From Mesorhizobium shangrilense (lineage in GTDB: Bacteria > Pseudomonadota > Alphaproteobacteria > Rhizobiales > Rhizobiaceae), in assembly GCF_028826155.1 (NCBI RefSeq), contig NZ_JAQGPN010000002.1, forward strand, positions 1 to 64,000: a stretch of DNA of 64,000 nt, in the 5' to 3' direction. Under the pieces are notes generated by a model. The model was not told the origin of the DNA. It saw nothing but the letters and a program-made list of their open reading frames with translations, and searched no databases. The translations under genes and the position numbers were made by a program. This document shows, piece after piece, positions 5,495 to 62,969 of the stretch (positions within the stretch are counted from its first letter, which is position 1; each line of letters starts with the position of its first letter).

Positions 5495-6988
5495 ATGCGA
5501 ATAGCCATCGGTGGATTTATCCACGAAACCAATACCTTCGCGCCGGCTCCGACGGTATTCGAGGACTTCGGTGATTGGCTTGGCAACGGAATTCCCGTTG
5601 GCAAAGAGATATTCGAGCGCACTCCGAAGACCATAGCGCTGAGAGGCGTAAGCGCGCGGGCCCGAGATGACGGGCATGAGCTTGTCCCGCTGATTCATGC
5701 GCCGGCTTCGCCAGCGAACAAGCTCACTGAGGATTGCTTCGAACGCATTTCGGCGATGCTAATCGAGCGGATTGGGGATCCTACGCGCCTCGATGGAGTC
5801 ATCCTGGATCTTCACGGTGCGATGGTTGCTAAGCATCACTCTGATGCCGACGCGGAGATTCTTCGTCGCGTACGAAGTCATGTCGGTCCGAATGTACCCG
5901 TGGTTGCATCCCTCGATCTGCACGGCAACGTAACCCCGGAAATGATCACGATTGCTGACGGTCTGGTCGGCTACCGGACCTATCCACACGTCGACATGTA
6001 CCAGACAGGCGAACGGGCATACGAACTATTCCTGGCACTAAAGTCGGACGCTCCTCCCAAGGCGCGCGGCTTCAGGAGCATTCCCTTTCTAATGCCGATC
6101 CACCGTCAGACCACGATGAATTCCCCCTGCAGCGAGCTTTATGCCAGCCTCGCGCGCCACGAGGCCGAGTGTGGCGACGGTGCGAAGCTCTCCTTCATGA
6201 TGGGTTTCACGTTAGCTGATGTGAACCAGTGCAGGCCGAGCCTGTATGGCTTTGGAGCCGACCAACAAAAACTCGACCGTGCTCTTGATGCGATGCTCGA
6301 GGAGATTCTTGACTGCGAAGCAGAGTTTCACGCAGCCCTCCCGAGCGCTGACGAAGCTGTGGCCGAAGCACTGAGGCAGCCGGAGGGCGTTACTGTTCTC
6401 GCCGACGTTCAAGACAATGCGGGCGGAGGCGGGACATCCGACACCATTTGGGTTTTGGAGAGCCTCCTGAAGGCAAAGGCTAAGGACGCCGTGGTTGGGC
6501 TTATGTTCGACCCTGAAGCCGCCAAGGCGGCTCACGCTGCAGGCCTTGGAGCTGACATTGAGATACCGCTCGGTGGCAAAGGCATGCCTGGACACGCGCC
6601 ATTGGTGCGGTCGTTCCGTGTGGCCGGCCTTCACGATGGGGTCTTTCGGCTCAAAGGTCCCATGATGGCGGGCTCCGATCAAAACCTCGGCAAAATGGCC
6701 TGGCTCGTCTGCGACGGCGTTGGCGTGGTCGTGACCAGCGTTCGGACTTGGTACGTCGAGCGTGAGAGCTTTGCAATTACTGGCGCGGTGCCCGAAGAGC
6801 ACCGCATCGTATCGGTCAAAAGCACAAACCACTACCGCGCCGACTTCACGGAACTGTCTTCACGGATCATCGAACTGGGGGCCCCAGGCGCTGTCACGCT
6901 CGACCCTTCGAAGCTTTCCTACAAAAACCTGCAGCCCGGAACGCGTTTGTACGGAACCGGCCCGGCATTTCAGCCGGCAAAGGTGTAA
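5495..6988 (+). CDS. M81 family metallopeptidase (MlrC-like)
   Basis: 497 residues, typical for the M81/MlrC family (DUF1485 + MlrC C-terminal). Motifs are the N-terminal AIGGFIHETNTF, DGVILDLHGAMV, SLDLHGNVTPEMI, GYRTYPHVDMYQTGERA, and the C-terminal ADVQDNAGGGGTSD. The His/Asp/Glu residues in these are the likely metal ligands. MlrC itself hydrolyses linearised microcystin; most relatives are uncharacterised and often lie beside dipeptide ABC importers, as here. It is the first gene of an operon that continues through a hydrolase and a Dpp-type transporter, so it probably acts in the cytoplasm on an imported small peptide or amide. Confidence 0.9.
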   Translation: MRIAIGGFIHETNTFAPAPTVFEDFGDWLGNGIPVGKEIFERTPKTIALRGVSARARDDGHELVPLIHAPASPANKLTEDCFERISAMLIERIGDPTRLDGVILDLHGAMVAKHHSDADAEILRRVRSHVGPNVPVVASLDLHGNVTPEMITIADGLVGYRTYPHVDMYQTGERAYELFLALKSDAPPKARGFRSIPFLMPIHRQTTMNSPCSELYASLARHEAECGDGAKLSFMMGFTLADVNQCRPSLYGFGADQQKLDRALDAMLEEILDCEAEFHAALPSADEAVAEALRQPEGVTVLADVQDNAGGGGTSDTIWVLESLLKAKAKDAVVGLMFDPEAAKAAHAAGLGADIEIPLGGKGMPGHAPLVRSFRVAGLHDGVFRLKGPMMAGSDQNLGKMAWLVCDGVGVVVTSVRTWYVERESFAITGAVPEEHRIVSVKSTNHYRADFTELSSRIIELGAPGAVTLDPSKLSYKNLQPGTRLYGTGPAFQPAKV

Positions 6989-19923: not shown

Positions 19924-20466
19924 ATGCACGACATTTTTCCCTTGCCCGAAATCACCTATTCGCTGGTCATCGATACGCTCGGCATACATCTGGCGCTTGG
20001 CTACGGCATTCACGCGTACTGTGAGACGCAGGACTGCAGGCACAATGCCAGGGTGAACCTCGTTCGCTTGGGGCGGCGGGTAGGTCGCGACTACGAGCTG
20101 AGCAGCGAGAATCTGAAGAGGCATCTGGCGTGCGCGGCATGTCGGCGGGCCGGGCGCGACGCGAACAATGTGAGCTTTCGGCTCCATCCCTGTACGCTGC
20201 CCTATAGCGATGTCGCCAGCCGCCGCTCCTTCCTTTGCCGGGGAGCGCTAGTCGTCGCGGCTTGGACCGCCACGGCCGAGGCCCTTGTCGCCGCGTTCGA
20301 CTTTGAAGTCATCGGCAGTGTCGGGTTTCTGATTTGGGCTGTCGTCGTTCCTGGTCGTGCTCTGGCCCTTGTCGCGTTGGCCGTAGATGTTGGGATCATC
20401 GGTGGGCGGGACCTCCGGCGCGGGCTTGTTTTCGGGCTGGGCGGCGGGGTCTTTGTCGGCGGGTGA
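19924..20466 (+). CDS. small Cys/His-rich protein, copy 2 (C-terminus frameshifted)
   Basis: From the ATG at 19924 (MHDIFPLPEITYSLVIDTLG) the first ~98 residues match copy 1 at 273 and keep the full CxxxxC ... CAAC ... C pattern, suggesting a zinc ribbon. After [20 protein letters not shown] a 1-base insertion relative to copy 1 removes the expected stop, so the frame runs on antisense through the relaxase 3' end to 20466. The functional product is probably the first ~100 residues. It is convergent with relaxase 1. Confidence 0.5.
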   Translation: MHDIFPLPEITYSLVIDTLGIHLALGYGIHAYCETQDCRHNARVNLVRLGRRVGRDYELSSENLKRHLACAACRRAGRDANNVSFRLHPCTLPYSDVASRRSFLCRGALVVAAWTATAEALVAAFDFEVIGSVGFLIWAVVVPGRALALVALAVDVGIIGGRDLRRGLVFGLGGGVFVGG

Positions 20467-21834
20467 TGGGGACTGGTCGGGGGTACGCTGGCGCTCGCCG
20501 ATGCGGTCGAGGAAGCTGCGTTGCGGGTCGTTTTTCGGGGCGGCGTCCTTGGCGGCCTGTTCGAAGCCGGCGGAGACGTCTTTGCCCTTCGGACTGCGTT
20601 CGCCGATGCGGTCGAGAAAGTTGCGCTCCGGCTCCTTTTTCGGGACGACGCCCTTGGCCGCCTGATCGAATTCGAAAGCGGAACGGTCGTTGCCTTGGCG
20701 CGCGATGCGCGCCTGGCCGTCGCGCTGCTGTTGTTGGGTCCGCGTTTGCTCCTGTCGTGCGGCGAGCTGCCGATCGGCAAGCTCCTTGCGCGCTTGATCG
20801 TGCTGCGCGGCGAGCGGCTTGATCTTGGTCTCGGTCATCGCTTTCAACTTGACCGCGAGTTCGCGGCGTTCGCGGACCTCCTTGGCGGCGACCTGATCGC
20901 GCATGATGTTGCCGTCAGACAGCACCTGGAATGCCCGCGTGACCATCGCCGGACGCTCCTCGCCGGCCTGGCCCCACCGATCGATTTCGCGGTTGTTGAG
21001 CCAGTAGCGGAGCCGGCCGAACGGCGTCTGCTGCGCTTTCTCGAATGCGTCGCGTTCCTTCTTCTGCTGTTTGTAGAGATCGGTCCAGTCGGCGCGCTGC
21101 ACCTCCTTTTGCGTCTTGCGTAGCGTTTCGATCTCGTCGCGGGCTTTGCGCTCGAGTTCGTCGCGCTCGCGCTTTTGTGCCTCGGTCAGATCCTGCTGCT
21201 GGCGGCGCCGCTGTTCTTCCGCGGCGCGCTCGCGCTGTTTCTGCCAGCGGCGGTAGGCGGCGGTGTCATCGCTGTCCTTGTCTTTCATGAAGCGCCCCCT
21301 GCGGCGTTCCTCGTTGTTGTCGACGCGGCGTTGGATGCGGATCAGGCCCTGTGCCTTTTCGTAGGCTTCGGCCCATTCAGACAACACCAGATGGTCTTTG
21401 GAAAGGGGGGCGGCGAGTCCGGTCGCCGGATGGACGCGGTTGGCGATGATGTGGATGTGCGGGTGCGGTGTGTCGTTGTGGGCGATCAGCACCGCCTCGT
21501 GGCTGGCGAGGCCGAGCTTGTGCATCGAAGCAAAGGCTGCCTCGAGCATTTCTTCCTTGGTCGGCGTCTCGTCCGGCGCCCAGGCGAGGCTGTAGGAGTA
21601 GACCGAGTTGACGAGCTTGCGGCCGGTGGCGACCGCGCCGGCGGCGCGCTTGATCTCGTCCTGGCGCAGGGCGGTATAGGCCATCCAGCCGAAGGCCTTG
21701 TCGGGATTGTCGGTCGGCAGATTGACGGTCATCGTGAACAGCACGCGGTCGCGCGTCTGGGCTCGTCTGTCGTGCAGGTAGTAGAGGCCGGCGCCTTTGA
21801 AGCTGCGGCCGCGTTTGGCGACTCTAGGGACCAC
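20248..21834 (-). CDS. relaxase / mobilization nuclease 1 (MOBP-like)
   Basis: About 528 residues from the GTG at 21834, which has a GGGAGG site 8 bp upstream and overlaps mobC by 11 bp (the frame is open to 21870). The N-terminal domain has GAGLYYLHD (candidate catalytic Tyr) and the metal-binding three-His motif HNDTPHPHIHIIANRVH. The middle is a long charged coiled-coil (KQRERAAEEQRRRQQQDLTE). The tail has two ~35-residue repeats ending FLDRIGER, then a Pro/Asp-rich end. It should nick oriT and pilot the strand to the TraG coupling protein encoded divergently. A shorter copy of its tail lies at 578-1030. Confidence 0.85.
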   Translation of the reverse strand: MVPRVAKRGRSFKGAGLYYLHDRRAQTRDRVLFTMTVNLPTDNPDKAFGWMAYTALRQDEIKRAAGAVATGRKLVNSVYSYSLAWAPDETPTKEEMLEAAFASMHKLGLASHEAVLIAHNDTPHPHIHIIANRVHPATGLAAPLSKDHLVLSEWAEAYEKAQGLIRIQRRVDNNEERRRGRFMKDKDSDDTAAYRRWQKQRERAAEEQRRRQQQDLTEAQKRERDELERKARDEIETLRKTQKEVQRADWTDLYKQQKKERDAFEKAQQTPFGRLRYWLNNREIDRWGQAGEERPAMVTRAFQVLSDGNIMRDQVAAKEVRERRELAVKLKAMTETKIKPLAAQHDQARKELADRQLAARQEQTRTQQQQRDGQARIARQGNDRSAFEFDQAAKGVVPKKEPERNFLDRIGERSPKGKDVSAGFEQAAKDAAPKNDPQRSFLDRIGERQRTPDQSPSPADKDPAAQPENKPAPEVPPTDDPNIYGQRDKGQSTTRNDDSPNQKPDTADDFKVERGDKGLGRGGPSRDD

Positions 21835-22162
21835 CGAGATCGACCTCCCGCATGAGGATGTCCTCGACATAGGCGGCGATGCGGGCGAGCTCCGGCGGGA
21901 TCTCGCCGGTGGCGTTGGCGACGTGCACGGCCTGGTTCAGGTTGATGCCGATCTTGCGGACTTGCTCGAGTGCGAGTGCGTCGAGCGCGCGCGATTTTTT
22001 CACGACAACACGGACACGCATGGAGCGGCGGCGGACGAGGTCGGTGACCGACAGGCCGGCGCGATCCGCGGCGGCGTGGATGCGGCGCATCTCGTCGAAG
22101 GTGAAGCGGACGTTGACCTGGTGGTCGCGGCGTTGGCGGTCGGGCATGGAAGGGCGAGCCAT
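21824..22162 (-). CDS. MobC-like relaxosome accessory protein 1
   Basis: About 112 residues from the ATG at 22162 (the frame is open to 22192). The N-terminal part RDHQVNVRFTFDEMRRIHAA followed by DRAGLSVTDLVRRRSMRVRV is a ribbon-helix-helix of the mobilisation-protein type. The C-terminal part (RKIGINLNQAVHVANATGEI) is the conserved GINLNQ segment of the MobC family (Pfam PF05713). It binds oriT DNA and helps the relaxase, whose gene overlaps its 3' end. An oriT is expected in the 22163-22348 gap between mobC and traG. Confidence 0.85.
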   Translation of the reverse strand: MARPSMPDRQRRDHQVNVRFTFDEMRRIHAAADRAGLSVTDLVRRRSMRVRVVVKKSRALDALALEQVRKIGINLNQAVHVANATGEIPPELARIAAYVEDILMREVDLGGP

Positions 22163-22348
22163 GGCGAGTGTGCTCCGATCCGGGGAATCCAAAGGGGGCG
22201 GGGCCCCCGTGGCGAGAGAGTTTTTGCTAGCAAAAACATATCTCGCTACCCGCTCCTGACGTCACGGGTAAGGTGCCTCCGTTCGGCGGTGGTTACAAGA
22301 GCCAAAGCAACGCGTATGATGAGAAATCCGTGAGCAAGGGGGGCTTCT
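22163..22348. promoter_or_regulatory. mobC/traG divergent intergenic region, candidate oriT
   Basis: About 190 bp between divergent mobilisation and coupling genes. It is the usual position of oriT and of transfer promoters. A short stretch around TTTTTGCTAGCAAAAACAT (22220-22238) contains a dyad (TTTTTGCTAGCAAAAA, near-perfect) that is AT-rich against the GC-rich surroundings and is a good candidate for relaxosome binding. No nic site was identified. Confidence 0.4.
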
Positions 22349-24100
22349 TTGGCGCGTGGGGTTCCGACAGTTGTTGGCCGTTTCGTAGCGGGCTTTTTAC
22401 TGGTCGGCCTGATGCGTAACGGCATTATTTTGCTTGTCGCCGGCGTCGTTGCAGCGGCATTCGGACTGGCGTTGCGCGGCCTGTTCGGTCCTTATTTTCC
22501 GACCGATGACACCATCTTCGTCGCCGACTGGTTTCCGTTTCTTGGCGACCGCAACAGTGTCTTCGGCGGCACCCCCGTATGGGTGGCGGTCGTCCTGGGC
22601 GTCCCGGGTTTTTGGCTGGTGTCGCGTCTGGTCGACTGGTCGGAGAGCGACGACTTCAAGATGATGATGGCCGAAAGCAGCAAGACGTCGCGGCTGTGGA
22701 GTCGGTCGGAAAAATTCGGCAAGGGCGGTTCGGCGGCGTTCGGCGGATTGCTCGACGAATGGGACGATCTCTATAAGCCGGGCGACGTGTTTCTGGGCCG
22801 GTCGATGTATGACCGCTCGCGGATTGGCAGCAGCGATCCGCGCGGCGTTCTGACCATCGCCTCGTCGCGTAGCGGCAAGGGGCGAAGCGCCATCATGCCC
22901 AATCTTCTGATGTGGCCGGGGTCGGCGTTGATCATCGATCCGAAGGGCACGAATGCTGCGGTCACCGCGTTGGCCAGAGGTCAAGGCGGAGGACGCCTGA
23001 CGCACTGGCTGGGTCAGGACGTTCATGTCGTCGACCCGTTCGGCATCGTCAAAGACGTCGAAGGCGCGGGCTTCAATCCGCTTGCGGATATCGATATCGA
23101 CAGCCTGACCGCCAACGAGGACATCGAGCTGCTTGCCGAGGCGCTGGTGGAGCCGGAGCGGGAGGGCGGCAGCAACACCAAGCATTTCGAGGAATCGGCG
23201 CGCATCATCATTGGCGGGGTGATCGCCTTCGTGCTCGAGACGTTCAACAATCCGACCTTGATGGATGTCCGGGCGGGTTTGGTGCAGCCCGATGACAGGC
23301 GTGCCGAGATGTTCAAGCGGATGATGGACAGCACCGCCGCGGGGGGTATGCCGCGCAATGCGGCGACGCTCGTGCGGTCGGCCGGCAATCAGGAGCTGGG
23401 TGGGATGATGACCACGGTCCTGCGTCATACCGCGTGGCTCGACGCGCCGGCTATGCGGCAGGTGCTGACGCGGTCGAGCTTTGTGATGGGTGACCTCAAG
23501 AAGCGGCCGACGTCGGTCTATCTGGTGTTGCCGCCCGAGATGCTGAAGATCCATGGCCGCTTTCTGCGCATGTTCGTCAACATGACCTTGAGCGCGGTGC
23601 CGCGGGGCGGCCGCAGCGAGACTCCGATCCTCATGCTGATGGACGAGTTCTATGCGCTCGGCCGTCTGGACTCGCTGGTCAAGGCGTCGGGGGCGCTTGC
23701 CGGTTACAATCTGCGGCTGTGGCCGATGCTGCAGAATATCAGCCAGCTGAAGGAGCTCTATCCGCAAAACTGGCAGAGCTTTTTCGCCAATGCCGGGGCG
23801 GTGCAGGTGTTCGGCGTCAACGACACCGAGACGGCCCGTGAGGTCGCCAGGATGCTTGGGCGCCGGGCGGTGGAGGAGGTGCGGGACGGCAAGACGTTCC
23901 GCACCATGGTCAACCTGATCGAGGAGGAGGAGCTGGGTGAGGCGCTGTCGATCGACGATGGCCGCCAGCTGATCTTGCGCTCGGGCAGGACGCCGCTGCT
24001 CCTGAAGAAGCTGAACTACGACCGGGCGTTCAAGCGCAGCGAGTACATGCCGGATCCGGACTACCGCGAGGAGGTCGGGTGGTGGGAGTATTGGAAATAG
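22349..24100 (+). CDS. type IV secretion coupling protein (VirD4/TraG family ATPase)
   Basis: 583 residues from the TTG at 22349 (an ATG at 22412 is an alternative but would cut into the first membrane helix). Two membrane helices (residues ~10-45 and ~75-90) are followed by the cytosolic NTPase: Walker A in ASSRSGKGRSAIMPN, ALIIDPKGTNAA, and Walker B ILMLMDEFYALGRL, then QVFGVNDTETAREVARMLG. It recruits the relaxase-DNA complex to the conjugation channel. No other channel genes (VirB-like) are in the window, so it either works with an apparatus elsewhere or belongs to a mobilizable element carrying its own coupling protein. Confidence 0.92.
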   Translation: MARGVPTVVGRFVAGFLLVGLMRNGIILLVAGVVAAAFGLALRGLFGPYFPTDDTIFVADWFPFLGDRNSVFGGTPVWVAVVLGVPGFWLVSRLVDWSESDDFKMMMAESSKTSRLWSRSEKFGKGGSAAFGGLLDEWDDLYKPGDVFLGRSMYDRSRIGSSDPRGVLTIASSRSGKGRSAIMPNLLMWPGSALIIDPKGTNAAVTALARGQGGGRLTHWLGQDVHVVDPFGIVKDVEGAGFNPLADIDIDSLTANEDIELLAEALVEPEREGGSNTKHFEESARIIIGGVIAFVLETFNNPTLMDVRAGLVQPDDRRAEMFKRMMDSTAAGGMPRNAATLVRSAGNQELGGMMTTVLRHTAWLDAPAMRQVLTRSSFVMGDLKKRPTSVYLVLPPEMLKIHGRFLRMFVNMTLSAVPRGGRSETPILMLMDEFYALGRLDSLVKASGALAGYNLRLWPMLQNISQLKELYPQNWQSFFANAGAVQVFGVNDTETAREVARMLGRRAVEEVRDGKTFRTMVNLIEEEELGEALSIDDGRQLILRSGRTPLLLKKLNYDRAFKRSEYMPDPDYREEVGWWEYWK

Positions 24101-24651: not shown

Positions 24652-25204
24652 GGTAGAGGTCGACGACGAGACCGCCGAGGCCGTGACTCAGTTGCGGGCC
24701 CGGAGCAATCGTGCCGGCGCGCGTGATTTCTGGCGGACGACGTTGCATGAGGGCCTCGATTTTGCGCTGGTGTTTCCGGAGGCGACGGTCGAGGAGGCCG
24801 CCCGAGACGCTGCACGATGGGCAGCGGAAGAGGCCGCCGGGGCGGCGGCGAAGGCCAGGCGCCGCGCGCAGGTCGAGCGGTTCCTGCCGCAGCTGAAAGC
24901 GTGGGCGGCGGCGATGCCGGAGCCGGCGGGCGACGCGCGTGTCGTCGCCAGCGTTCATCTGCGGTCGCACGAGGCGCGGCTGGCGGGATTTCTCGGCTGT
25001 GTCAGCGCGCTGCAGGCGCGCGGCTTACCGGTCGGACGGCTCGAAGTTGATCTTGGTAGCGCCGCCGACCGCCGCGCCGCGCGGGACTACGTCCGGCATC
25101 TTGTCGTGGATGAACTGCGCGGCGAGCAGGCGAAGCTGCGTGACGGCAGTCATTCCTTTCTTCAGCCCGGCGAATGGGAGGACGACGAGGAGCTGCCGTT
25201 CTGA
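24638..25204 (+). CDS. hypothetical protein, second of a paralogous pair
   Basis: 188 residues, overlapping the preceding gene by 14 bp. It repeats the same design: VYKVEVDDETAEAVTQLRAR, then ARDFWRTTLHEGLDFALVFP, a coiled-coil middle rich in Ala/Arg, and a C-terminal block DARVVASVHLRSHEARLAGF with a final acidic DDEELPF. The shared VEVDD start and RxxLxxGxD motif indicate an old tandem duplication. Third gene of the traG operon; function unknown. Confidence 0.7.
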   Translation: MPVYKVEVDDETAEAVTQLRARSNRAGARDFWRTTLHEGLDFALVFPEATVEEAARDAARWAAEEAAGAAAKARRRAQVERFLPQLKAWAAAMPEPAGDARVVASVHLRSHEARLAGFLGCVSALQARGLPVGRLEVDLGSAADRRAARDYVRHLVVDELRGEQAKLRDGSHSFLQPGEWEDDEELPF

Positions 25205-25208
25205 GCGC

Positions 25209-25243
25209 AAAAAAAGAACGGCCCGGTTTGACCCGGGCCGTTC
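25209..25243 (-). terminator. Rho-independent terminator of the 42-codon gene
   Basis: Perfect 11-bp stem GAACGGCCCGG / CCGGGCCGTTC with a 6-nt loop. On the minus strand it is followed by seven T residues (25215-25209). It lies 5 bp after the stop of the minus-strand gene at 25249, and also faces the end of the plus-strand traG operon. Confidence 0.85.
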
Positions 25244-25248
25244 GGCGA

Positions 25249-25377
25249 TCAGTCGTAGAGGGCTTCGTCAGGCAGCCCGTCGGCGGTGTCGATGCCGAAC
25301 AGGCGCGTCAGCGCCGCATCGACGTCTGACCAGTAGGCCGGGTGTTCCGTGCCGGTGAAGCGTTCGTCGCAAGCCAT
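25249..25377 (-). CDS. 42-residue acidic protein behind a structured leader
   Basis: From the ATG at 25377, with AAGGAG 6 bp upstream. The sequence begins MACDERFTGTEHPAYWSDVD and ends GLPDEALYD. It is a short, acidic, single-domain protein with no recognised family. Three things argue that it is real: a strong ribosome site, its own terminator, and the same ~230-nt structured leader that precedes the DUF736 and DUF2493 genes. Its acidity and size would fit an inhibitor or DNA-mimic role, but that is speculation. Confidence 0.7.
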   Translation of the reverse strand: MACDERFTGTEHPAYWSDVDAALTRLFGIDTADGLPDEALYD

Positions 25378-25610
25378 GTCATTCTCCTTGGTTTTTGTTT
25401 TGAGACTGCGGCCATCGCAGCCTCCTTGCCGATTGTTTGCGGCAGGCCGATCCGGCCCGCAGCCGAAGGCCCGCAACGTCAGTGGAGGATGACCGACGGC
25501 GATTTTTTCCGTGGTGGTGCGGCGCGGCACGCGCCTGCCGGAAAAAATCGACGGGTCATTGCGGGATGGAGGAACGGAGGCCTTGGCCGGCCTGCCGCAT
25601 GATCGGCAAG
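25378..25610 (-). promoter_or_regulatory. structured leader element, copy A
   Basis: Non-coding leader of the 42-residue gene. Plus-strand coordinates of the nested stems: CCCGCA 25470-25475 / TGCGGG 25560-25565; ATGACC 25489-25494 / GGTCAT 25554-25559; CGATTTTTTCCG 25500-25511 / CGGAAAAAATCG 25539-25550; apical GGCGCG 25521-25526 / CGCGCC 25530-25535 with a GCA loop. A one-sided bulge holds the conserved CAGTGGAGG (CCTCCACTG in the transcript). A conserved GATCAT box marks the far end (near 25600). Two further copies, at 26167 and 62647, share the architecture with compensatory base changes. Confidence 0.7.
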
Positions 25611-25810
25611 GGTGAAGGCGTCGATGGCGTGCAGGTTCAAGGAGAGGAAAAACCGGGGAGAATGGCGCGGTGACAGAGCGGACCGGCGCTGAGGCGGCAT
25701 GGTGGTCGCGTTGTTCTGCGGCGACGGAAAGATTGTGCAGGTTTTCGGCAACATTGTTCCGGCTGTGCCGGCGCGTGCGTATGTCGGCGGAGAAGAGCGA
25801 TGCGGAAAGC

Positions 25811-25846
25811 AAAAAAGAAACCGCCCCGCCGACAAGGCGGGGCGGT
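25811..25846 (-). terminator. Rho-independent terminator of the DUF736 gene
   Basis: Perfect 11-bp stem ACCGCCCCGCC / GGCGGGGCGGT with a 5-nt loop, followed on the minus strand by TTTCTTTTTT. It is 14 bp after the DUF736 stop. A closely similar ACCGCCCCGC stem follows the DUF2493 gene at 61676. Confidence 0.85.
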
Positions 25847-25860
25847 GGGTCAGCGGGATC

Positions 25861-26166
25861 TCACTTGGGCTGCGAGCGGCTCCAGATGAGATTGTGCTGG
25901 TCCTGCTCGTCTTCGACCAGGGTGGCGTAGATGGGAGCCGGGAGGCTCGGGTCGTCCAGCTTGACCGAGACGTAGGGGCGGTCCTGCTGCGAGGTGCGCT
26001 TCCAGGCGGCGCCGATTTCGACGTTGCCCGCGTAGACGCGGTAGTCGGGGCCGTTGGCGGTCGCCTCGATGGGGACGAACTTCGCCTTGGTGTTCAGCGC
26101 CAGGGTCTTGATCGCGCCGCTGAAAACGCCGTCTTCTGCCTTTGCGAAAGTGCCGATGTTAGCCAT
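25861..26166 (-). CDS. DUF736 family protein
   Basis: 101 residues from the ATG at 26166 (another ATG lies 6 bp upstream but is too close to AAAGGAG). It begins [20 protein letters not shown] and contains [34 protein letters not shown] and the final LIWSR, which are the hallmarks of DUF736 (Pfam PF05284), an all-beta protein common on alphaproteobacterial plasmids. Its function is unknown; it is often near antirestriction and replication genes. It is expressed as a single gene with its own structured leader and terminator. Confidence 0.93.
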
Positions 26167-26203
26167 TGTCATTCTCCTTTGTTTGTTCAGGGACCGCGAC
26201 CAT
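26159..26203 (-). CDS. 14-codon upstream ORF coupled to DUF736
   Basis: Within leader copy B an AGAGG site precedes ATG at 26203. The frame [14 protein letters not shown] ends with TAA at 26159-26161, just past the DUF736 start at 26166. The DUF736 Shine-Dalgarno lies inside this frame, a layout that allows translational coupling. A similar AUG with AAGGAGG is present in copy A (25415), but there the frame is longer. Whether it is translated is unknown. Confidence 0.3.
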
Positions 26204-26397
26204 CGCAGCCTCTATGGCGATCGGTTGCAGCAGGCCGCTCCGGCCCTCACTCGCCCGCAACGCAGTGGAGGATGACGAAGGGCGATTTTTTTTTGTGGTG
26301 AAGCGGCGCGGCACGCGCCTGCCAAAAAAAATCGAACCGTCATTGAGGGCCAAGGAGCGGAGGCCGCTTGCGGCCGGTCTGCGGCATGATCCGCCAT
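26167..26397 (-). promoter_or_regulatory. structured leader element, copy B
   Basis: Leader of the DUF736 gene. Stems (plus coordinates): GGCCCTCA 26242-26249 / TGAGGGCC 26344-26351; ATGACG 26272-26277 / CGTCAT 26338-26343; CGATTTTTTTT 26283-26293 / AAAAAAAATCG 26324-26334; apical GGCGCG 26305-26310 / CGCGCC 26314-26319. Compared with copy A, ATGACC/GGTCAT has become ATGACG/CGTCAT (both sides changed), and the outer stem differs while still pairing. The GATCAT box is at about 26388-26393. Confidence 0.7.
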
Positions 26398-26399
26398 AG

Positions 26400-26840
26400 T
26401 TTTGAGGCAGCGATGCTGTCGCTGGTGCCTGTTCATCGACAAACAAACGGGGAATGAGCGGTGGCTGTTCTGACATCGGGGGCAACGCGGCAAGGCAGTC
26501 GGCGGTGAAGGAATGTGGCGGGATGGTCCTGAGCGTCGTGCTGAACATAGGCGATGGGCGCGCGGTCGCGTGGCGGCGGTAATGGTATTCGATGTGCCGG
26601 ACGGGGTCCGGGCAACGGCTTCGGAGCCGGTGAGAGAAAGGGCGCACTTTGCGGCAGGTCGCGACACCGCAACTGTCTTGGTCGAGCGCGAGGCGCAGGT
26701 CTTGCCTGCGTTCATCAGCCTCCGGTCGGGAGAGCAGGGGCGTGCCGATCAGGTCGGAGTGGGGTGTCGCACCAGCGATGACGTCGCCAAATGTCGTGCC
26801 GACAAGGCGGGGTGGTTTTGTGCGTGAGGCGCTTGATCTA
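26400..26840. other. no recognisable gene
   Basis: About 440 bp beyond leader copy B. Open frames exist on both strands but have poor, Arg/Pro-rich composition and no family resemblance. Near 26800 the sequence CCGACAAGGCGGGG repeats one arm and loop of the DUF736 terminator, so part of this stretch may be a decayed duplicate of the DUF736 region. It probably holds the promoter for the leader-DUF736 transcript. Confidence 0.4.
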
Positions 26841-26847
26841 TGGGAGA

Positions 26848-27141
26848 TCAGCGAGCGGGCGTTGGGTCGAGGCGCAGTGATGGCGGGAGATGGAAAGTTC
26901 TGCACATGGTGCCGGAAACCTCCTTGCCCTGCTCGGTTTTGGCGGTGAATTTGGTTCTCCACATGTCGCCGGCGTTGCAGCCGAACCAGGAATAGCCGCG
27001 GGGCTGGACGTCGGTGAGGCCATGCTGGGTGGCTGTGTCGATGGTGCCCTGTGGATCGACCCAGAGCGGATTCCAGACAGCGGCAACGATTCCGACCATG
27101 AGCCCGATGGAGACAAGATTAAATTTGGTTTTTACATCCAT
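26848..27141 (-). CDS. small membrane-anchored protein, unknown
   Basis: 97 residues. It has a short cytosolic start (MDVKTKF), one membrane segment or uncleaved signal (LVSIGLMVGIVAAVWNPLWV, residues 9-28), then an extracytoplasmic part with two Cys (FGCNAGDMWRTKF, GTMCRTFHL) that could form a disulfide. Upstream is an AT-rich promoter-like gap (27142-27287). No family recognised. It resembles the anchored proteins at 32195 and 60556 only in size and topology. Confidence 0.6.
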   Translation of the reverse strand: MDVKTKFNLVSIGLMVGIVAAVWNPLWVDPQGTIDTATQHGLTDVQPRGYSWFGCNAGDMWRTKFTAKTEQGKEVSGTMCRTFHLPPSLRLDPTPAR

Positions 27142-27287: not shown

Positions 27288-27542
27288 CTATTTGTCGTTG
27301 TCGGTTTCCGCCTTCGGCTCGCGCAGCACGATGCGGCCGCCGCTGGCCGGCAGCAGTTCGAGGTCGAGCGTCATGCCCTTGCCGTCCTCGTGGCTGAAGG
27401 CCGCGCCGATCTTGGTCCAGTACGGCTTTTCGCGGTCGGGGACGTAGTAGGCAAGCAGCGCGGGCTGTTTCTTGGTTTTTGGCGCGGGCGCGGTCGTCGG
27501 TTTTTTGTCGGCGGCGGCGTCGGTTGTCTTCTTGCGTGGCAT
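27288..27542 (-). CDS. conserved plasmid-type protein, 84 residues
   Basis: A Lys/Ala/Pro-rich N-terminus (about 28 residues, disordered) precedes a compact domain with YYVPDREKPYWTKIGAAFSH, then GKGMTLDLELLPASGGRIVL. The WTKIGAAF...DGKG..L.L..LP..GRIVLR pattern is one I associate with small conserved proteins of alphaproteobacterial plasmids next to relaxase genes. Function unknown. It lies 27 bp downstream of the relaxase 2 stop on the same strand, so it is probably the third gene of that operon. Confidence 0.75.
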   Translation of the reverse strand: MPRKKTTDAAADKKPTTAPAPKTKKQPALLAYYVPDREKPYWTKIGAAFSHEDGKGMTLDLELLPASGGRIVLREPKAETDNDK

Positions 27543-27569: not shown

Positions 27570-29231
27570 TCAGCTGTTCGGTCGTTTCGTCGGGCGGCTG
27601 GGGTCTTGCGGGTCGGACGGCGGCGGCTCGACGGGCGCGGCGTCGCGGGGCATCGTCAGTTTGGCGTTGCGGATCAGGTCGACGGCGCTGTGGTGGGTCG
27701 CGCTGAGTTGCGGCGCGCGCGTGTCGCGGGCCGCGTTCGGGCTTTCCCGGCGGGTGACGATGTCGGTTGCGTTGACTGTGAAAGCCTGTCGTTTGTGGCC
27801 GCGGGTGTCGTGGTTGGATTTGACGGCCGGCGTGTGCTGGTCGGTGATGTCGTGGCCGTTCTGGCGGCAGTGACGATACCATTCGCGGGGGTTGAGCCGG
27901 TCGGGGTTGACGAGGTCGGTAATGTCGTCGGGCGTCATGTGCCCGGCCGCCAGGGCGGCGCGGTTGGCGACAGCCGCCATGCGCATGGCTCGGCTCATCG
28001 TCCGGAAGGCCTGGGCGCGGTCTTCGCGCTGCTCGAGTTTTCTGCGGTAGGCGTCGGTGATGTCGTCGCGGCAGGCGCGGAGTTCCTGCTGGCGGCGGAG
28101 CGCCTCGGCTTCCTCGCGCTGGCGGCGCAGGAGATCGAGGTCGGTCTGGCGTTCGTAGTAGCGGATGATGGCGGCAACGGCGGGAAGGCGTCGCAGCATG
28201 CGGCGTAAGGGTCGGTCGCGGAGCCGCATTAGGTGTTCGAATTCGGCCTTGTGCCTGGCCTTGAGGGCGAGCCGCTCCTCGATGTTCCGCAGCTCCTGTT
28301 TGAGGCGGGCGAGAAGCAGCATCAGGGCGTGTTTGCGACGGCGCTTGTCGGTTGCGGCGCGCAGTCGGGCGGCGTCGGTTTCGGCCTGCTGGTGGAGACG
28401 GGCAAGGCGGACGGCGGCGCGTTCCTTGAGGATGGCTTTGGCTTTCTGCACGTCGGGGACGCCGGCGAGGCTGGTCAGTTTGGCCTTGACGTCGCGGCTG
28501 CTGGCCCCGTCGATCTGGCGGGCCAGGCTGAAGATCTCGGCGTTGTCGTCGAGCACGACGAAGGCGCGCTTGTCGCCGATCGCCAGCGTGAAGCCGGCCG
28601 CCTCGAGCGCGGCGCGGAAGGCGTCGGCCGTGTCGGAGCCGCGGAACGCCTCGGTCAGGATCTGGCGGCGTTCCTTGACGGTCATGCCGGTCGCTTCCGA
28701 CTGGATCTTTTCGGCGCGGGTGTAGTCCTGCCCGGGACGGGTGTGGCGGTCCGGATTCTTGGCCGCCCACGCCTGGAGGCCGAAGGGCAGGGGAACCTCG
28801 AGCTCGCGGAAGAACTGCACCGATAGGTCGGTCAGCTTGGCATGGTCGTGGCTCATGTGAACCGACTTGAGGCGGTCGCCGTCGGCATAGATGCGAGACC
28901 AGACGACATGGCAGTGCTCGCGGCCGTCCTTGACGTGGAAGATGACGGCACGCGGCTGCCCGGACAGCTTGAGCGTCTGCTCGATGCGCTCGATGGCGGC
29001 GAAATAGGCGGCCCGGTCGACGCGCACGGGCGGGTTGATCGACAGGCTGTAGAACGGCTCCTTGCAGCGGGTGCCGGCCGCCGTCGCTTCATATTCGGCG
29101 AACGCCCCGAACAGGTCGGCCGCGGTGGTGCCGCGCAGCTCGGCGATCGACACGTCTTCGTTGTCGACGCCGTTCATCAGATGGGCGGCAAGGTCGGTGG
29201 CGCCGGTGCGCTGTGAGCCTTTGAGGATCAT
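27570..29231 (-). CDS. relaxase / mobilization nuclease 2
   Basis: 553 residues. It begins MILKGSQRTGATDLAAHLMN (GSQRTGA is typical of one relaxase clade), and has the metal-binding segment IFHVKDGREHCHVVWSRI with the His residues expected for relaxase motif III. Long charged helices follow (residues 250-420) and a Pro-rich end (PPPSDPQDPSRPTKRP). It is only remotely related to relaxase 1. The ATG overlaps the MobC 2 stop as ATGA. It should nick a separate oriT, so the element may carry two transfer origins. Confidence 0.85.
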   Translation of the reverse strand: MILKGSQRTGATDLAAHLMNGVDNEDVSIAELRGTTAADLFGAFAEYEATAAGTRCKEPFYSLSINPPVRVDRAAYFAAIERIEQTLKLSGQPRAVIFHVKDGREHCHVVWSRIYADGDRLKSVHMSHDHAKLTDLSVQFFRELEVPLPFGLQAWAAKNPDRHTRPGQDYTRAEKIQSEATGMTVKERRQILTEAFRGSDTADAFRAALEAAGFTLAIGDKRAFVVLDDNAEIFSLARQIDGASSRDVKAKLTSLAGVPDVQKAKAILKERAAVRLARLHQQAETDAARLRAATDKRRRKHALMLLLARLKQELRNIEERLALKARHKAEFEHLMRLRDRPLRRMLRRLPAVAAIIRYYERQTDLDLLRRQREEAEALRRQQELRACRDDITDAYRRKLEQREDRAQAFRTMSRAMRMAAVANRAALAAGHMTPDDITDLVNPDRLNPREWYRHCRQNGHDITDQHTPAVKSNHDTRGHKRQAFTVNATDIVTRRESPNAARDTRAPQLSATHHSAVDLIRNAKLTMPRDAAPVEPPPSDPQDPSRPTKRPNS

Positions 29232-29752
29232 GGCGAGGCCATCCGGTTGGGGCTGGGTGTGTCGGTTGACGCGGCCGGCATCGACGCGTCGGTTGGCGCG
29301 GTCGGTTCGGGCCAGGCCTCGGGCGGGTTGGCGGCCGGTTGCCAGATGGCGACGAGCGGTTCGGCAAGAACGACGGGCTGAGGCGCGGGCCGGACTGGCC
29401 GGGGGGTGCGGCCCATCGCCTGCAGGCAGAGGAAGCTCATGTCGGCGAGGTGATCGAGGGCGGCGGACAGGCGGGCATCGTCGGGATGCTTGGCGTCGGG
29501 GTGGGCTGCGATGAGGCGCAGCTGGTCAGCGACGGGGCCGAGGTCGCGGATCAGCCGGGCGACAAGCGTGGTGTCGGCCGCCGGCCGGCGGGTCGCCCGC
29601 GCCCTGGGTTCGTCGAGCAGCGCCATGCGGATCAGCGAGGCGACGGAGACGCCGGCCTGGTCGGCGTTGTCGCGCACCAGCGCGGCTTCCTCGTCGCTGA
29701 AGCGGGCCGAGAGCGAAATGCTGCGTTGCCGTGTGTCCGTGCCGCTCGTCAT
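29228..29752 (-). CDS. MobC-like protein 2 (ribbon-helix-helix)
   Basis: 174 residues from the ATG at 29752, with AAGGAGGGG just upstream. N-terminal ISLSARFSDEEAALVRDNAD and AGVSVASLIRMALLDE form a ribbon-helix-helix; then comes LIRDLGPVADQLRLIAAHPD, and a Pro-rich tail. It is the typical relaxosome accessory encoded before a relaxase, with a 4-bp overlap. The long structured non-coding region upstream (29779-30188) could contain its oriT or a regulatory leader. Confidence 0.8.
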   Translation of the reverse strand: MTSGTDTRQRSISLSARFSDEEAALVRDNADQAGVSVASLIRMALLDEPRARATRRPAADTTLVARLIRDLGPVADQLRLIAAHPDAKHPDDARLSAALDHLADMSFLCLQAMGRTPRPVRPAPQPVVLAEPLVAIWQPAANPPEAWPEPTAPTDASMPAASTDTPSPNRMASP

Positions 29753-61731: not shown

Positions 61732-62646
61732 TCAGGCGGCGTCGTCGAACCGCCAGACCGGAATGCCGAGCCGGCGGGCCTTGTCGGCGAGGTTGCCGGT
61801 GATGCCGGAGCCGGGGAAGATGATGACGCCTTTGGGCATGGTTGCCAGGAGGACGTCGTTGCGCTTGAAGGGTGCCGCCTTGGCGTGCTTGCTCCAGTCG
61901 GGCTTGAAGGTGATCTGGGTGACGTGGCGGCTGTCGGCCCAGCAGGCGGCGATGCGTTCGGCCCCCTTCGGGCTGGCCCCGTGCAGCAGCACCATGTCGG
62001 GATAGCGGGCGAGCGTCTTGTCGAGCGTGTCCCAGATCAGCTGGTGATCGTTGCAGTCGACGCCGCCGGAGAAGGCGATCTTGGTGCCGGCGGGCAACAT
62101 CACTTCGGTCTCGGTGCGGCGTTTGGCGGCGATGAAGTCGCGGCTGTCGATGACGGCGGCAGTCATGTTGCGGTGATTGACCTTGGACCCGGAGAGCGGC
62201 CGCCAGGCGGAGCCGGTGTGCTGCTCGAAGAGGTCGCAGGCGAGGTCGGTGAGCGCTTCGAAGCAGTTGCGGCGTTCGAGCAGCGTGATGCCTTCGGCGG
62301 TGAGCTGTTCGAGTTCGACGGACTTGACCTCGGAACCGTCCTGTTCGTCCTGGCTGCGGCGCTGTGCGTGCTCGTTGTCGTCGAGCAGGCGCTGCGCGCG
62401 GTAGCCGGCGCGGTGGAACAGGTTGACCGCCGACCACAAGAGGTCCTCGAGGTCGGGCTCGAGGCGGGTGTCGGTGAAGGTCGAGACCAGCGCGTCGAAG
62501 ATGTCGATGATCGCGGCCTGGGCGTGGTCGGCGTCGGGCATCGGCCGCGGATCCGGCTCGTCGTGCGGGCGAAACCCGTAGAGCTGCAGTTCCGAAAGGG
62601 CGGCGGCGGTGAGCGAGGTGGCGGCGTGAGGCGAGGGCATGATCAT
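61732..62646 (-). CDS. DUF2493 / SLOG-family protein
   Basis: 304 residues from the ATG at 62646 with AAGGAG 7 bp upstream. The C-terminal ~120 residues are a Rossmann-like SLOG domain: TKIAFSGGVDCNDHQLIWDT, DMVLLHGASPKGAERIAACW and VIIFPGSGITGNLADKARRL, as in DUF2493 (YspA-like) proteins predicted to bind nucleotides. The N-terminal part is helical. These are frequent on alphaproteobacterial plasmids, possibly in nucleotide signalling or defence; unproven. It has the third copy of the structured leader. Confidence 0.9.
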   Translation of the reverse strand: MIMPSPHAATSLTAAALSELQLYGFRPHDEPDPRPMPDADHAQAAIIDIFDALVSTFTDTRLEPDLEDLLWSAVNLFHRAGYRAQRLLDDNEHAQRRSQDEQDGSEVKSVELEQLTAEGITLLERRNCFEALTDLACDLFEQHTGSAWRPLSGSKVNHRNMTAAVIDSRDFIAAKRRTETEVMLPAGTKIAFSGGVDCNDHQLIWDTLDKTLARYPDMVLLHGASPKGAERIAACWADSRHVTQITFKPDWSKHAKAAPFKRNDVLLATMPKGVIIFPGSGITGNLADKARRLGIPVWRFDDAA

Positions 62647-62881
62647 CGAATGGCTCCTTGGCTGGCTGTGGTGGGCCGCGACCTTCGCGGCCTTTTTCCG
62701 GGATCATCCCTGCGGCGGCGGGCGGGCCGTAGAACCGCGCGCCTCGGCGCGCGGCCGGAACGCCAGTGGAGGATGGCCGGGCGCAGATTTTTTGCTGGGC
62801 GAGGAGCGCCGGCCCTGCCGGCGCGGGGAAAAAATCTGCAGGACGGCCATTTCGAGGCCTGTCCCGGCGACGCTATGATCC
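62647..62881 (-). promoter_or_regulatory. structured leader element, copy C
   Basis: Leader of the DUF2493 gene. Stems (plus coordinates): ATGGCCG 62773-62779 / CGGCCAT 62844-62850; GCAGATTTTTT 62783-62793 / AAAAAATCTGC 62829-62839; apical GCGCCGGC 62806-62813 / GCCGGCGC 62817-62824 with a CCT loop. The bulge CCAGTGGAGG is kept, and the GATCAT-like box is at 62874-62879. The apical hairpin keeps its shape but its sequence differs completely from copies A and B, and the upper stem has an extra compensated pair. Confidence 0.7.
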
Positions 62882-62969
62882 CCTCTCGGAAAAGGCTGCG
62901 TGGAGGTCGTGAGCTGCGCCGGGACGAGAGCGCGGTCGAGGTCGCGCCGCTGGCCGCCGCCACTCTCCC

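Follow-up and report, generated by a model that had tools for sequence, protein, structure and literature searches.

Promoters that work on single-stranded DNA (ssDNA) are known from enterobacterial plasmids, together with related candidates. In the F plasmid, Frpo1 and Frpo2 precede different leading-region genes, and both are needed for early expression in the recipient; Frpo has been described with canonical -35/-10 boxes (both points from PMC9849209). A 2024 survey in Nature (PMC11541004) counts 13,089 promoters homologous to Frpo, along with other candidates; DUF736, Rhizobi-, ArdC, MobQ and Agrobacterium are nowhere mentioned in its main text. Here we describe a repeated leader element in a 64,000-nucleotide (nt) stretch of the alphaproteobacterium Mesorhizobium shangrilense (contig NZ_JAQGPN010000002.1, positions 1 to 64,000; hereafter the window), where it precedes a DUF736 gene, an open reading frame (ORF) for a 42-amino-acid (aa) acidic product and a SLOG/YspA-like gene. 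It seems to us reasonably probable that this leader is a promoter in the ssDNA strand transferred during conjugation (T-strand), working like Frpo and unrelated to it in sequence. A search of the open-licence literature found nothing on such elements in this group; ssDNA promoters are already known as a kind, and what is new is this family and the wobble-polarity test by which its folding strand was read.

Like the element, the Frpo and ssi single-stranded promoters of F- and ColIb-P9-type plasmids are long imperfect hairpins of a few hundred nt that stand before different leading-region genes. The likeness of Frpo extends to the T-strand as template and to the wobble polarity of the template strand, and the one Frpo copy inspected has an A/T-rich stem, as do the three copies in the window (A, B and C). 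In L277, Frpo1 and Frpo2 are 90% alike and lie about 5 kb apart. The element differs from Frpo in its mostly alphaproteobacterial hosts, in its gene set (DUF736, SLOG, ArdC) and in its Shine-Dalgarno hairpin. The cis-regulatory RNAs of Rfam, like the element, are conserved and structured and stand immediately ahead of a coding start, but none matches at gathering score at the copies searched, and the main structure of the element has the opposite wobble polarity. The origin of transfer (oriT) of the RSF1010/Ti type, with traCDG on its leading side, supplies the polarity for our comparison, having TATAATTGCGCCCTT on one strand and the leading-region genes on the other; unlike the element, an oriT is the start of transfer, and in the window the relaxosome is of the NikA/MobA type and the oriT-like block is a different one.

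All three leader copies in the window are on the minus strand, with the following extents and parts:

26167..26400, minus strand: element A, leader of the DUF736 gene, with the main structure at about 26213-26400 and then a Shine-Dalgarno-proximal hairpin
25378..25640, minus strand: element B, leader of the 42-aa acidic ORF
62647..62900, minus strand: element C, leader of the SLOG/YspA-like gene
26263..26274, minus strand: conserved CATCCTCCACTG of A, consisting of the bulge CCTCCACTG and the end of the paired arm
25480..25491, minus strand: conserved CATCCTCCACTG of B
62764..62775, minus strand: conserved CATCCTCCACTG of C
26192..26210, minus strand: Shine-Dalgarno-proximal hairpin of A, GGCTGCGA/TCGCGGTC
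25402..25424, minus strand: Shine-Dalgarno-proximal hairpin of B, GAGGCTGCG/CGCAGTCTC
62674..62692, minus strand: Shine-Dalgarno-proximal hairpin of C, GGCCGCGA/TCGCGGCC

The initial annotation of this DNA had recognized a structured leader repeated before the DUF736 gene and the 42-residue ORF and had spoken of three copies; all three are real, C being the third. The profile matches span 26151-26422 for A (173.9 bits), 25373-25651 for B (135.5 bits) and 62642-62928 for C (106 bits), and the model R1 scores the three at 112.6, 110.6 and 79.3 bits, respectively. Ungapped blocks common to A and B measure 68 nt (81% identity) and 63 nt (84% identity), and CATCCTCCACTG is identical in all three copies. 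The compensatory changes first seen in the paired arms are likewise real: B (42-aa ORF) has ATGACC/GGTCAT against ATGACG/CGTCAT in A (DUF736), and C has ATGGCC/GGCCAT, with the bulge CCTCCACTG constant beside these covarying arms. The outer stems of A and B, which had been said to pair in both leaders despite their change in sequence, are able to do so (CCCGCAA/TTGCGGG and GGCCCTCA/TGAGGGCC), as is the stem proposed between the U-rich and A-rich arms (GATTTTTT/AAAAAATC). When the coding strand is folded as RNA, A and B have z-scores of -3.55 and -6.17, with 0/200 shuffles as good for either, and C has a z-score of -1.71, with 9/200 as good; the opposite strand folded as DNA gives -4.72, -7.84 and -4.13 for A, B and C, with 0/200 shuffles each. 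Copy C is telling in that its complement as DNA, in which T-rich arms pair with A-rich arms, folds more unusually than its coding strand as RNA. Only A, B and C reach E<=0.01 in a model search of the window and the next 40 kb of the contig; a plus-strand stretch at 5657-5825 has E=0.015 in a smaller search set.

These copies belong to a large, undescribed family. Element A as query matched 61 plasmid records, and of the 40 matches listed 39 are at an annotated DUF736 gene and one is at no annotated gene; blastn with B as query matched no plasmid. One of the DUF736 leaders so found, from an Agrobacterium plasmid, matches 804 of 72,556 plasmid records, 520 of them over at least 80% of the leader length and 538 of them typed as conjugative, and an Azospirillaceae plasmid leader as query matched 612 records. 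A covariance model built from 18 copies, the kind of search that the initial annotation had looked to, finds the element conserved far beyond the window, in 32/385 genomes of the same class at E<=1e-5 and, at E<=1e-6, in 41/199 genomes of its own order, 18/96 and 5/18 genomes in two other orders and 44/398 genomes of the phylum (6 of the 44 outside the class), the genome draws overlapping. A match to a described Rfam family would have removed the novelty; none of Rfam 15 was found at gathering score in the window, among the copies in four plasmid stretches or at 20 further loci, and three Rfam matches in those four stretches (Atu_Ti1, ar15 and ctRNA_p42d) lie away from the copies. The initial annotation had asked whether this is one of the published RNA motifs named after plasmid DUF genes; no such motif named after DUF736 was found in the literature searched, where the word occurs in PMC8627217 and PMC8055020. 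Among simpler patterns, an exact one drawn from the three window copies (AAAAATC...CATCCTCCACTG) occurs genome-wide at 24 loci in mixed phyla, taken as chance by their titles, and a 21-mer with 3 mismatches occurs in 83/289 genomes, judged mostly noise; viral contigs gave 0 matches.

Alignment of the family revealed a shared plan that begins with the outer stem, CCGCAACGGC and an apical stem (CTTTCTT/AAGAAAG) whose cap, a GC hairpin, bears the conserved CCCCTG and TTCCTCGCGA, and continues with the bulge CCTCCACTGCG (missing in some), a last hairpin like GGCCGCGA/TCGCGGCC and then the Shine-Dalgarno sequence. DUF736 leaders that have no bulge CCTCCACTGCG but are otherwise complete are seen at L036 4987-5272 and in L101, L105, L113 and L118. 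The 186 distinct copies precede DUF736 (97), SLOG-type (51), ArdC (11) and other ORFs (23) or none (4), where the classes come from short protein patterns and are rough, several of the 'other' genes being visibly DUF736 or SLOG. Pfam confirmed ArdC in a Ti-plasmid stretch (ArdcN plus a metallopeptidase domain) and an N6_N4_Mtase DNA methylase among the genes led by copies, which also include small acidic ORFs. In a set of 91 matches, the start codon falls at one fixed offset from the end of the profile in 70, and matches scoring 50 bits or more have it in 61 of 67 cases; a copy therefore stands, as a rule, directly before a single gene. Adjacent copies are on the same strand in 47 of 50 pairs, drawn from the 38 stretches with at least two copies.

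An RNA helix tolerates G.U, and the same change on the other strand reads A.C, so that the two kinds of departure from pairing betray the strand that folds. We aligned the copies by class, kept only those pairs that RNAalifold predicts for both strands alike, and scored the departures from Watson-Crick pairing by parsimony. Filtering by score and redundancy left sets of 82 of 97 DUF736, 39 of 51 SLOG and 11 of 11 ArdC leaders, covariation being present across these 82 + 39 + 11 sequences; the 23 'other' copies and the 4 with no ORF did not enter the sets. For the main structure, the coding strand has A.C:G.U changes of 195:85 overall (binomial p 4e-11), made up of 128:47 for DUF736, 42:24 for SLOG and 25:14 for ArdC, and this excess of A.C is G.T on the template strand. 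A.C leads in most of the main helices (10/12 in DUF736, 6/9 in SLOG and 6/8 in ArdC). For DUF736 and SLOG, the direction is robust to three other aligner settings and two random subsets of 30 each, and it is kept when the pairs come from the coding-strand RNA fold alone. The same pipeline run on 30 cobalamin riboswitch loci (of 55 matches) from the same bacterial class gives 15:41 (Fisher p 5e-9 vs the element). As a second control, 18 copies of Frpo from 8 loci of F-like plasmids have A.C 10 and G.U 3 at 77 pairs shared by both strands; these counts are small because the copies are closely related, and the polarity differs from that of the riboswitch (p 0.001) and not from that of the element (p 0.76). 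Further, when the two strands are compared as RNA folds, the coding strand is the more stable one in just 1 of 67 element copies and in 0 of 18 Frpo copies vs 19 of 30 riboswitches. The raw cells at shared pairs in 32 strong copies of the element are A.C 73 and G.U 34.

We do not favor mutation bias as the cause of this polarity. At unpaired columns of the DUF736 leaders, transitions per 1000 are 36.6 for C>T and 58.5 for A>G vs 28.3 for G>A and 38.1 for T>C; the transitions that make G.U are the favored ones there for DUF736 and for ArdC, and for SLOG they are so in one comparison of two (in the other, G>A is slightly above C>T). Because the unpaired-column rates are thus mostly higher for G.U-making changes and push the opposite way, such a bias does not explain the excess of A.C.

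The Shine-Dalgarno hairpin behaves differently from the main structure, with A.C 8 and G.U 22 across the family (Fisher p 7e-6), and is read as part of the mRNA. Because only this hairpin is so read, we predict that transcription starts between it and the main structure. The main structure itself is very probably not selected as mRNA and quite likely acts as T-strand DNA. The initial annotation had taken the compensatory changes as evidence for selection on RNA (or cruciform) structure. Its observation was right and its RNA reading probably wrong: selection on the mRNA finds no support in the 195:85 of the main structure, opposite to the riboswitch and like Frpo, and the bracketed cruciform, that is, a DNA structure, came nearer the mark. 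Of the RNA reading, only the Shine-Dalgarno hairpin leans its way, and weakly in subsets.

The position of the copies relative to oriT provides a second line of evidence. In Ti-type plasmids the gene order is broadly similar, namely toprim, DUF1419, DUF3085, a 5-kb helicase/methylase, ParB, ArdC and DUF736, with parts absent in some, and this array points at traG-traD-traC and the oriT before traA; in two Ti-type stretches only DUF736 and the tra genes are annotated in this order. In 5 of 12 plasmid loci scanned, the interval from traC to traA holds an inverted repeat followed by the motif TATAATTGCGCCCTT, which is on the other strand from the genes; two more of the loci have traC and traA but did not match the nic pattern. 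We assume the rule of RSF1010, under which CCCTT is where the T-strand starts, so that it passes traC and traG before reaching the leading region. Because this rule sets the direction of the T-strand, 12 of the 13 elements (E<0.001) in five Ti-type plasmids lie in the leading region with the T-strand as their template, given the nic position so assumed; the exception is a single inverted copy in L033. In Ti-type plasmids, weak copies also lead an ORF of ~170 bp that lies downstream of DUF736 (L270 17126-17248, L271 17142-17246 and L274 17168-17253), which suggests that there are more tiny leading-region genes with such leaders.

In the window, the corresponding transfer genes and the predicted oriT are these:

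21824..22192, minus strand: NikA/MobC-like relaxosome protein (PF21983, PF05713)
20248..21870, minus strand: MobA/VirD2-type relaxase (PF03432, E 6.1e-21)
22349..24100, plus strand: TraG coupling protein (PF02534, E 2.1e-54)
22194..22251, plus strand: predicted oriT, an inverted repeat GTTTTTGC/GCAAAAAC followed by ATATCTCGCTACCC

The relaxase and NikA-like genes (20248-22192, minus) are divergent from TraG (22349, plus). The 58-bp oriT-like block recurs in a 9.7-kb plasmid of Pelagovum pacificum, between mobC-relaxase and TraG genes that diverge there too, as its sole match among 72,556 plasmid records, and the ATATCTCGCTACCC on the plus strand is perfectly common to the two; the core of the block was found in 0/60 other genomes of the family searched. 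The oriT layout of RP4/R64, which we take to hold here, puts the window nic on the plus strand, so that the T-strand would be the plus strand. Because the nic is so placed, the plus strand is predicted to enter first and to template A, B and C. A second MobA/VirD2-type relaxase gene with a NikA-like neighbor is present at 27570-29231 and 29228-29740 on the minus strand.

The genes led by the three copies and the hairpins that follow two of them are as follows:

25861..26166, minus strand: DUF736 protein, 101 aa (PF05284/DUF736, E 3.5e-33), with its start set at the ATG used by relatives (the ORF listing begins at 26172)
25249..25377, minus strand: 42-aa acidic ORF without a Pfam family
61732..62646, minus strand: SLOG/YspA-like protein, 304 aa (PF10686 YAcAr, E 6.6e-31)
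25820..25846, minus strand: terminator-like hairpin after DUF736, between A's gene and element B (11 pairs plus a T-rich tail)
25216..25243, minus strand: terminator-like hairpin after the 42-aa ORF (11 pairs plus a T-rich tail)

The 42-aa ORF is ~0.8 kb from the DUF736 leader, and because a terminator-like hairpin separates A's gene from B, the two look like separate units. An 84-aa ORF at 27288-27542 on the minus strand has no detected copy of the element; an ORF in L153 (1609-1896) that looks similar to it by eye has a copy of its own.

On the basis of the conservation, covariation, wobble polarity, gene set and same-strand clustering of the element and of the T-strand geometry in Ti-type plasmids with the nic so assumed, we propose the following mechanism. 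During conjugation the T-strand would enter the recipient 5' end first, and the element in it, being the complement of the coding strand, is predicted to fold in vivo into a long imperfect hairpin with a GC-rich base, an unpaired bulge that in most copies contains GGAGG, and a stem with a GC-rich cap, which in the three window copies is an A/T-rich stem. This hairpin would be bound by RNA polymerase and serve it as a promoter, and the gene on its oriT-proximal side would be transcribed at once, ahead of second-strand synthesis. The early products in the recipient would then be DUF736, ArdC, SLOG-family, DNA-methylase and small acidic proteins. Conversion to double-stranded DNA would dissolve the hairpin and turn the genes off, so that the promoter would exist only while the plasmid is single stranded. 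ArdC binds ssDNA, counters restriction and is required in the recipient, not in the donor, according to PMC7213743.

Several observations weigh against a promoter in the T-strand. No sequence similarity connects the element with Frpo in profile searches both ways (best E 0.4 and 1.1). No convincing -35/-10 consensus was found at a steady place on either strand, inside the element or upstream, and none was found within 25150-26900 of the window; the box scan peaks (z 6.0) on the template strand, 240-211 nt ahead of the SLOG start codons, in a bin that is not box-like by eye, and its next-highest bin is before DUF736 (z 2.8). Because of this missing consensus, we do not file the element as an Frpo, only as working like one. 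The gap in stability between the strands is mostly base composition, the mean z difference after dinucleotide shuffling being 0.36 (p 0.025) and a direct comparison of the z-scores of the two strands giving p 0.09. When 67 copies are placed in one mixed alignment, A.C occupies 51 raw cells at the shared pairs and G.U 57. Ratios of observed to expected A.C over G.U are only mildly above 1, and the bootstrap intervals of their logarithms touch or cross zero: 0.31 (0.00 to 0.65) for DUF736, 0.20 (-0.23 to 0.71) for SLOG and 0.26 (0.00 to 0.62) for ArdC. In DUF736, the observed/expected value of A.C (0.55) is no higher than that of other mismatches (0.54), with G.U at 0.41; the values for A.C, G.U and other mismatches are 0.64, 0.55 and 0.42 in SLOG, 0.81, 0.62 and 0.65 in ArdC, and 0.23, 0.51 and 0.33 in the riboswitch. 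The G.U lean of the Shine-Dalgarno hairpin is weak or absent in random DUF736 subsets (A.C:G.U 4:4 and 9:7). Two copies, the one in L033 and one of a pair in L214, are oriented the wrong way. Finally, an RSF1010-like motif occurs at 26649 on the minus strand, and were it the nic, the polarity of the window would be reversed; we set it aside for the 22194-22251 block, which is common to another plasmid between the same genes. Pairs of oppositely facing copies ~0.8 kb apart occur at L214 1607 and 2382 and in G832:C6 (229817- and 228993+), and are possibly inverted or recombining segments.

Among other explanations, a T-strand structure with a role other than that of a promoter, such as a site that primes complementary-strand synthesis (ssi) or a site bound by an ssDNA-binding leading-region protein (e.g., ArdC), would fit the polarity and the leading-region location equally well, and Frpo itself, as Masai and Arai are said to have reported in 1997, also primes. 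We consider such a role unlikely, as it leaves unexplained why the copies mostly end at a Shine-Dalgarno sequence and start codon, why many single genes have a copy of their own and why the terminal hairpin leans toward RNA. It is distinctly unlikely that the folded molecule is a structured antisense RNA, made from the opposite strand and controlling the adjoining gene. That template-strand wobble polarity is equally expected of an antisense RNA tells against the promoter; moreover, main-structure A.C vs other mismatches (195:316) is near the G.U of the riboswitch (41:56), and a weak terminator-like site of 5 pairs lies beyond B on the plus strand (25694-25709). Against an antisense RNA, neither strand has a convincing promoter consensus (no search of the family for a shared terminator was made), extra assumptions are needed to account for the association with leading-region genes and the fixed distance to the start codon, and Frpo, a DNA element, has the same polarity. 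An antisense small ORF inside the element is not favored, its variability having no clear phase, its spacing not being fixed modulo 3 and the open frames before DUF736 being about equal (31, 30 and 29 of 50). An RNA leader, that is, an element in the 5' untranslated region whose RNA structure controls translation or termination, perhaps with CCUCC binding the Shine-Dalgarno sequence, is improbable: copies that mostly abut the start codon at one offset and end in a G.U-leaning Shine-Dalgarno hairpin, and RNA folds of A and B that surpass all 200 shuffles, speak for it, but G.U is rarer than A.C in the main structure (85:195; for DUF736 observed/expected, 0.41 and 0.55 vs 0.51 and 0.23 in the riboswitch), just 1/67 copies fold better as RNA on the coding strand, C is more unusual as T-strand DNA than as mRNA, and no upstream promoter consensus is convincing.

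Returning to a T-strand promoter, we tentatively raise the possibility that the family constitutes a second widespread class of ssDNA promoters, unrelated in sequence to Frpo and without visible -35/-10 boxes, in alphaproteobacterial leading regions including those of Ti plasmids, with an RNA start that might be read from the flip in wobble polarity. The part of this work of widest use is the wobble-polarity test, which is general: comparing G.U and A.C by strand suggests from sequence alone which strand folds, and could tell RNA from ssDNA among the 'RNA motifs' that mobile elements carry. If the proposed promoter is real, a large group of soil and plant plasmids would join those with early expression from the entering strand, establishment of the plasmid in the recipient would become the assigned role of DUF736, a SLOG family and several tiny ORFs, and the clustering of these genes near oriT would be explained.

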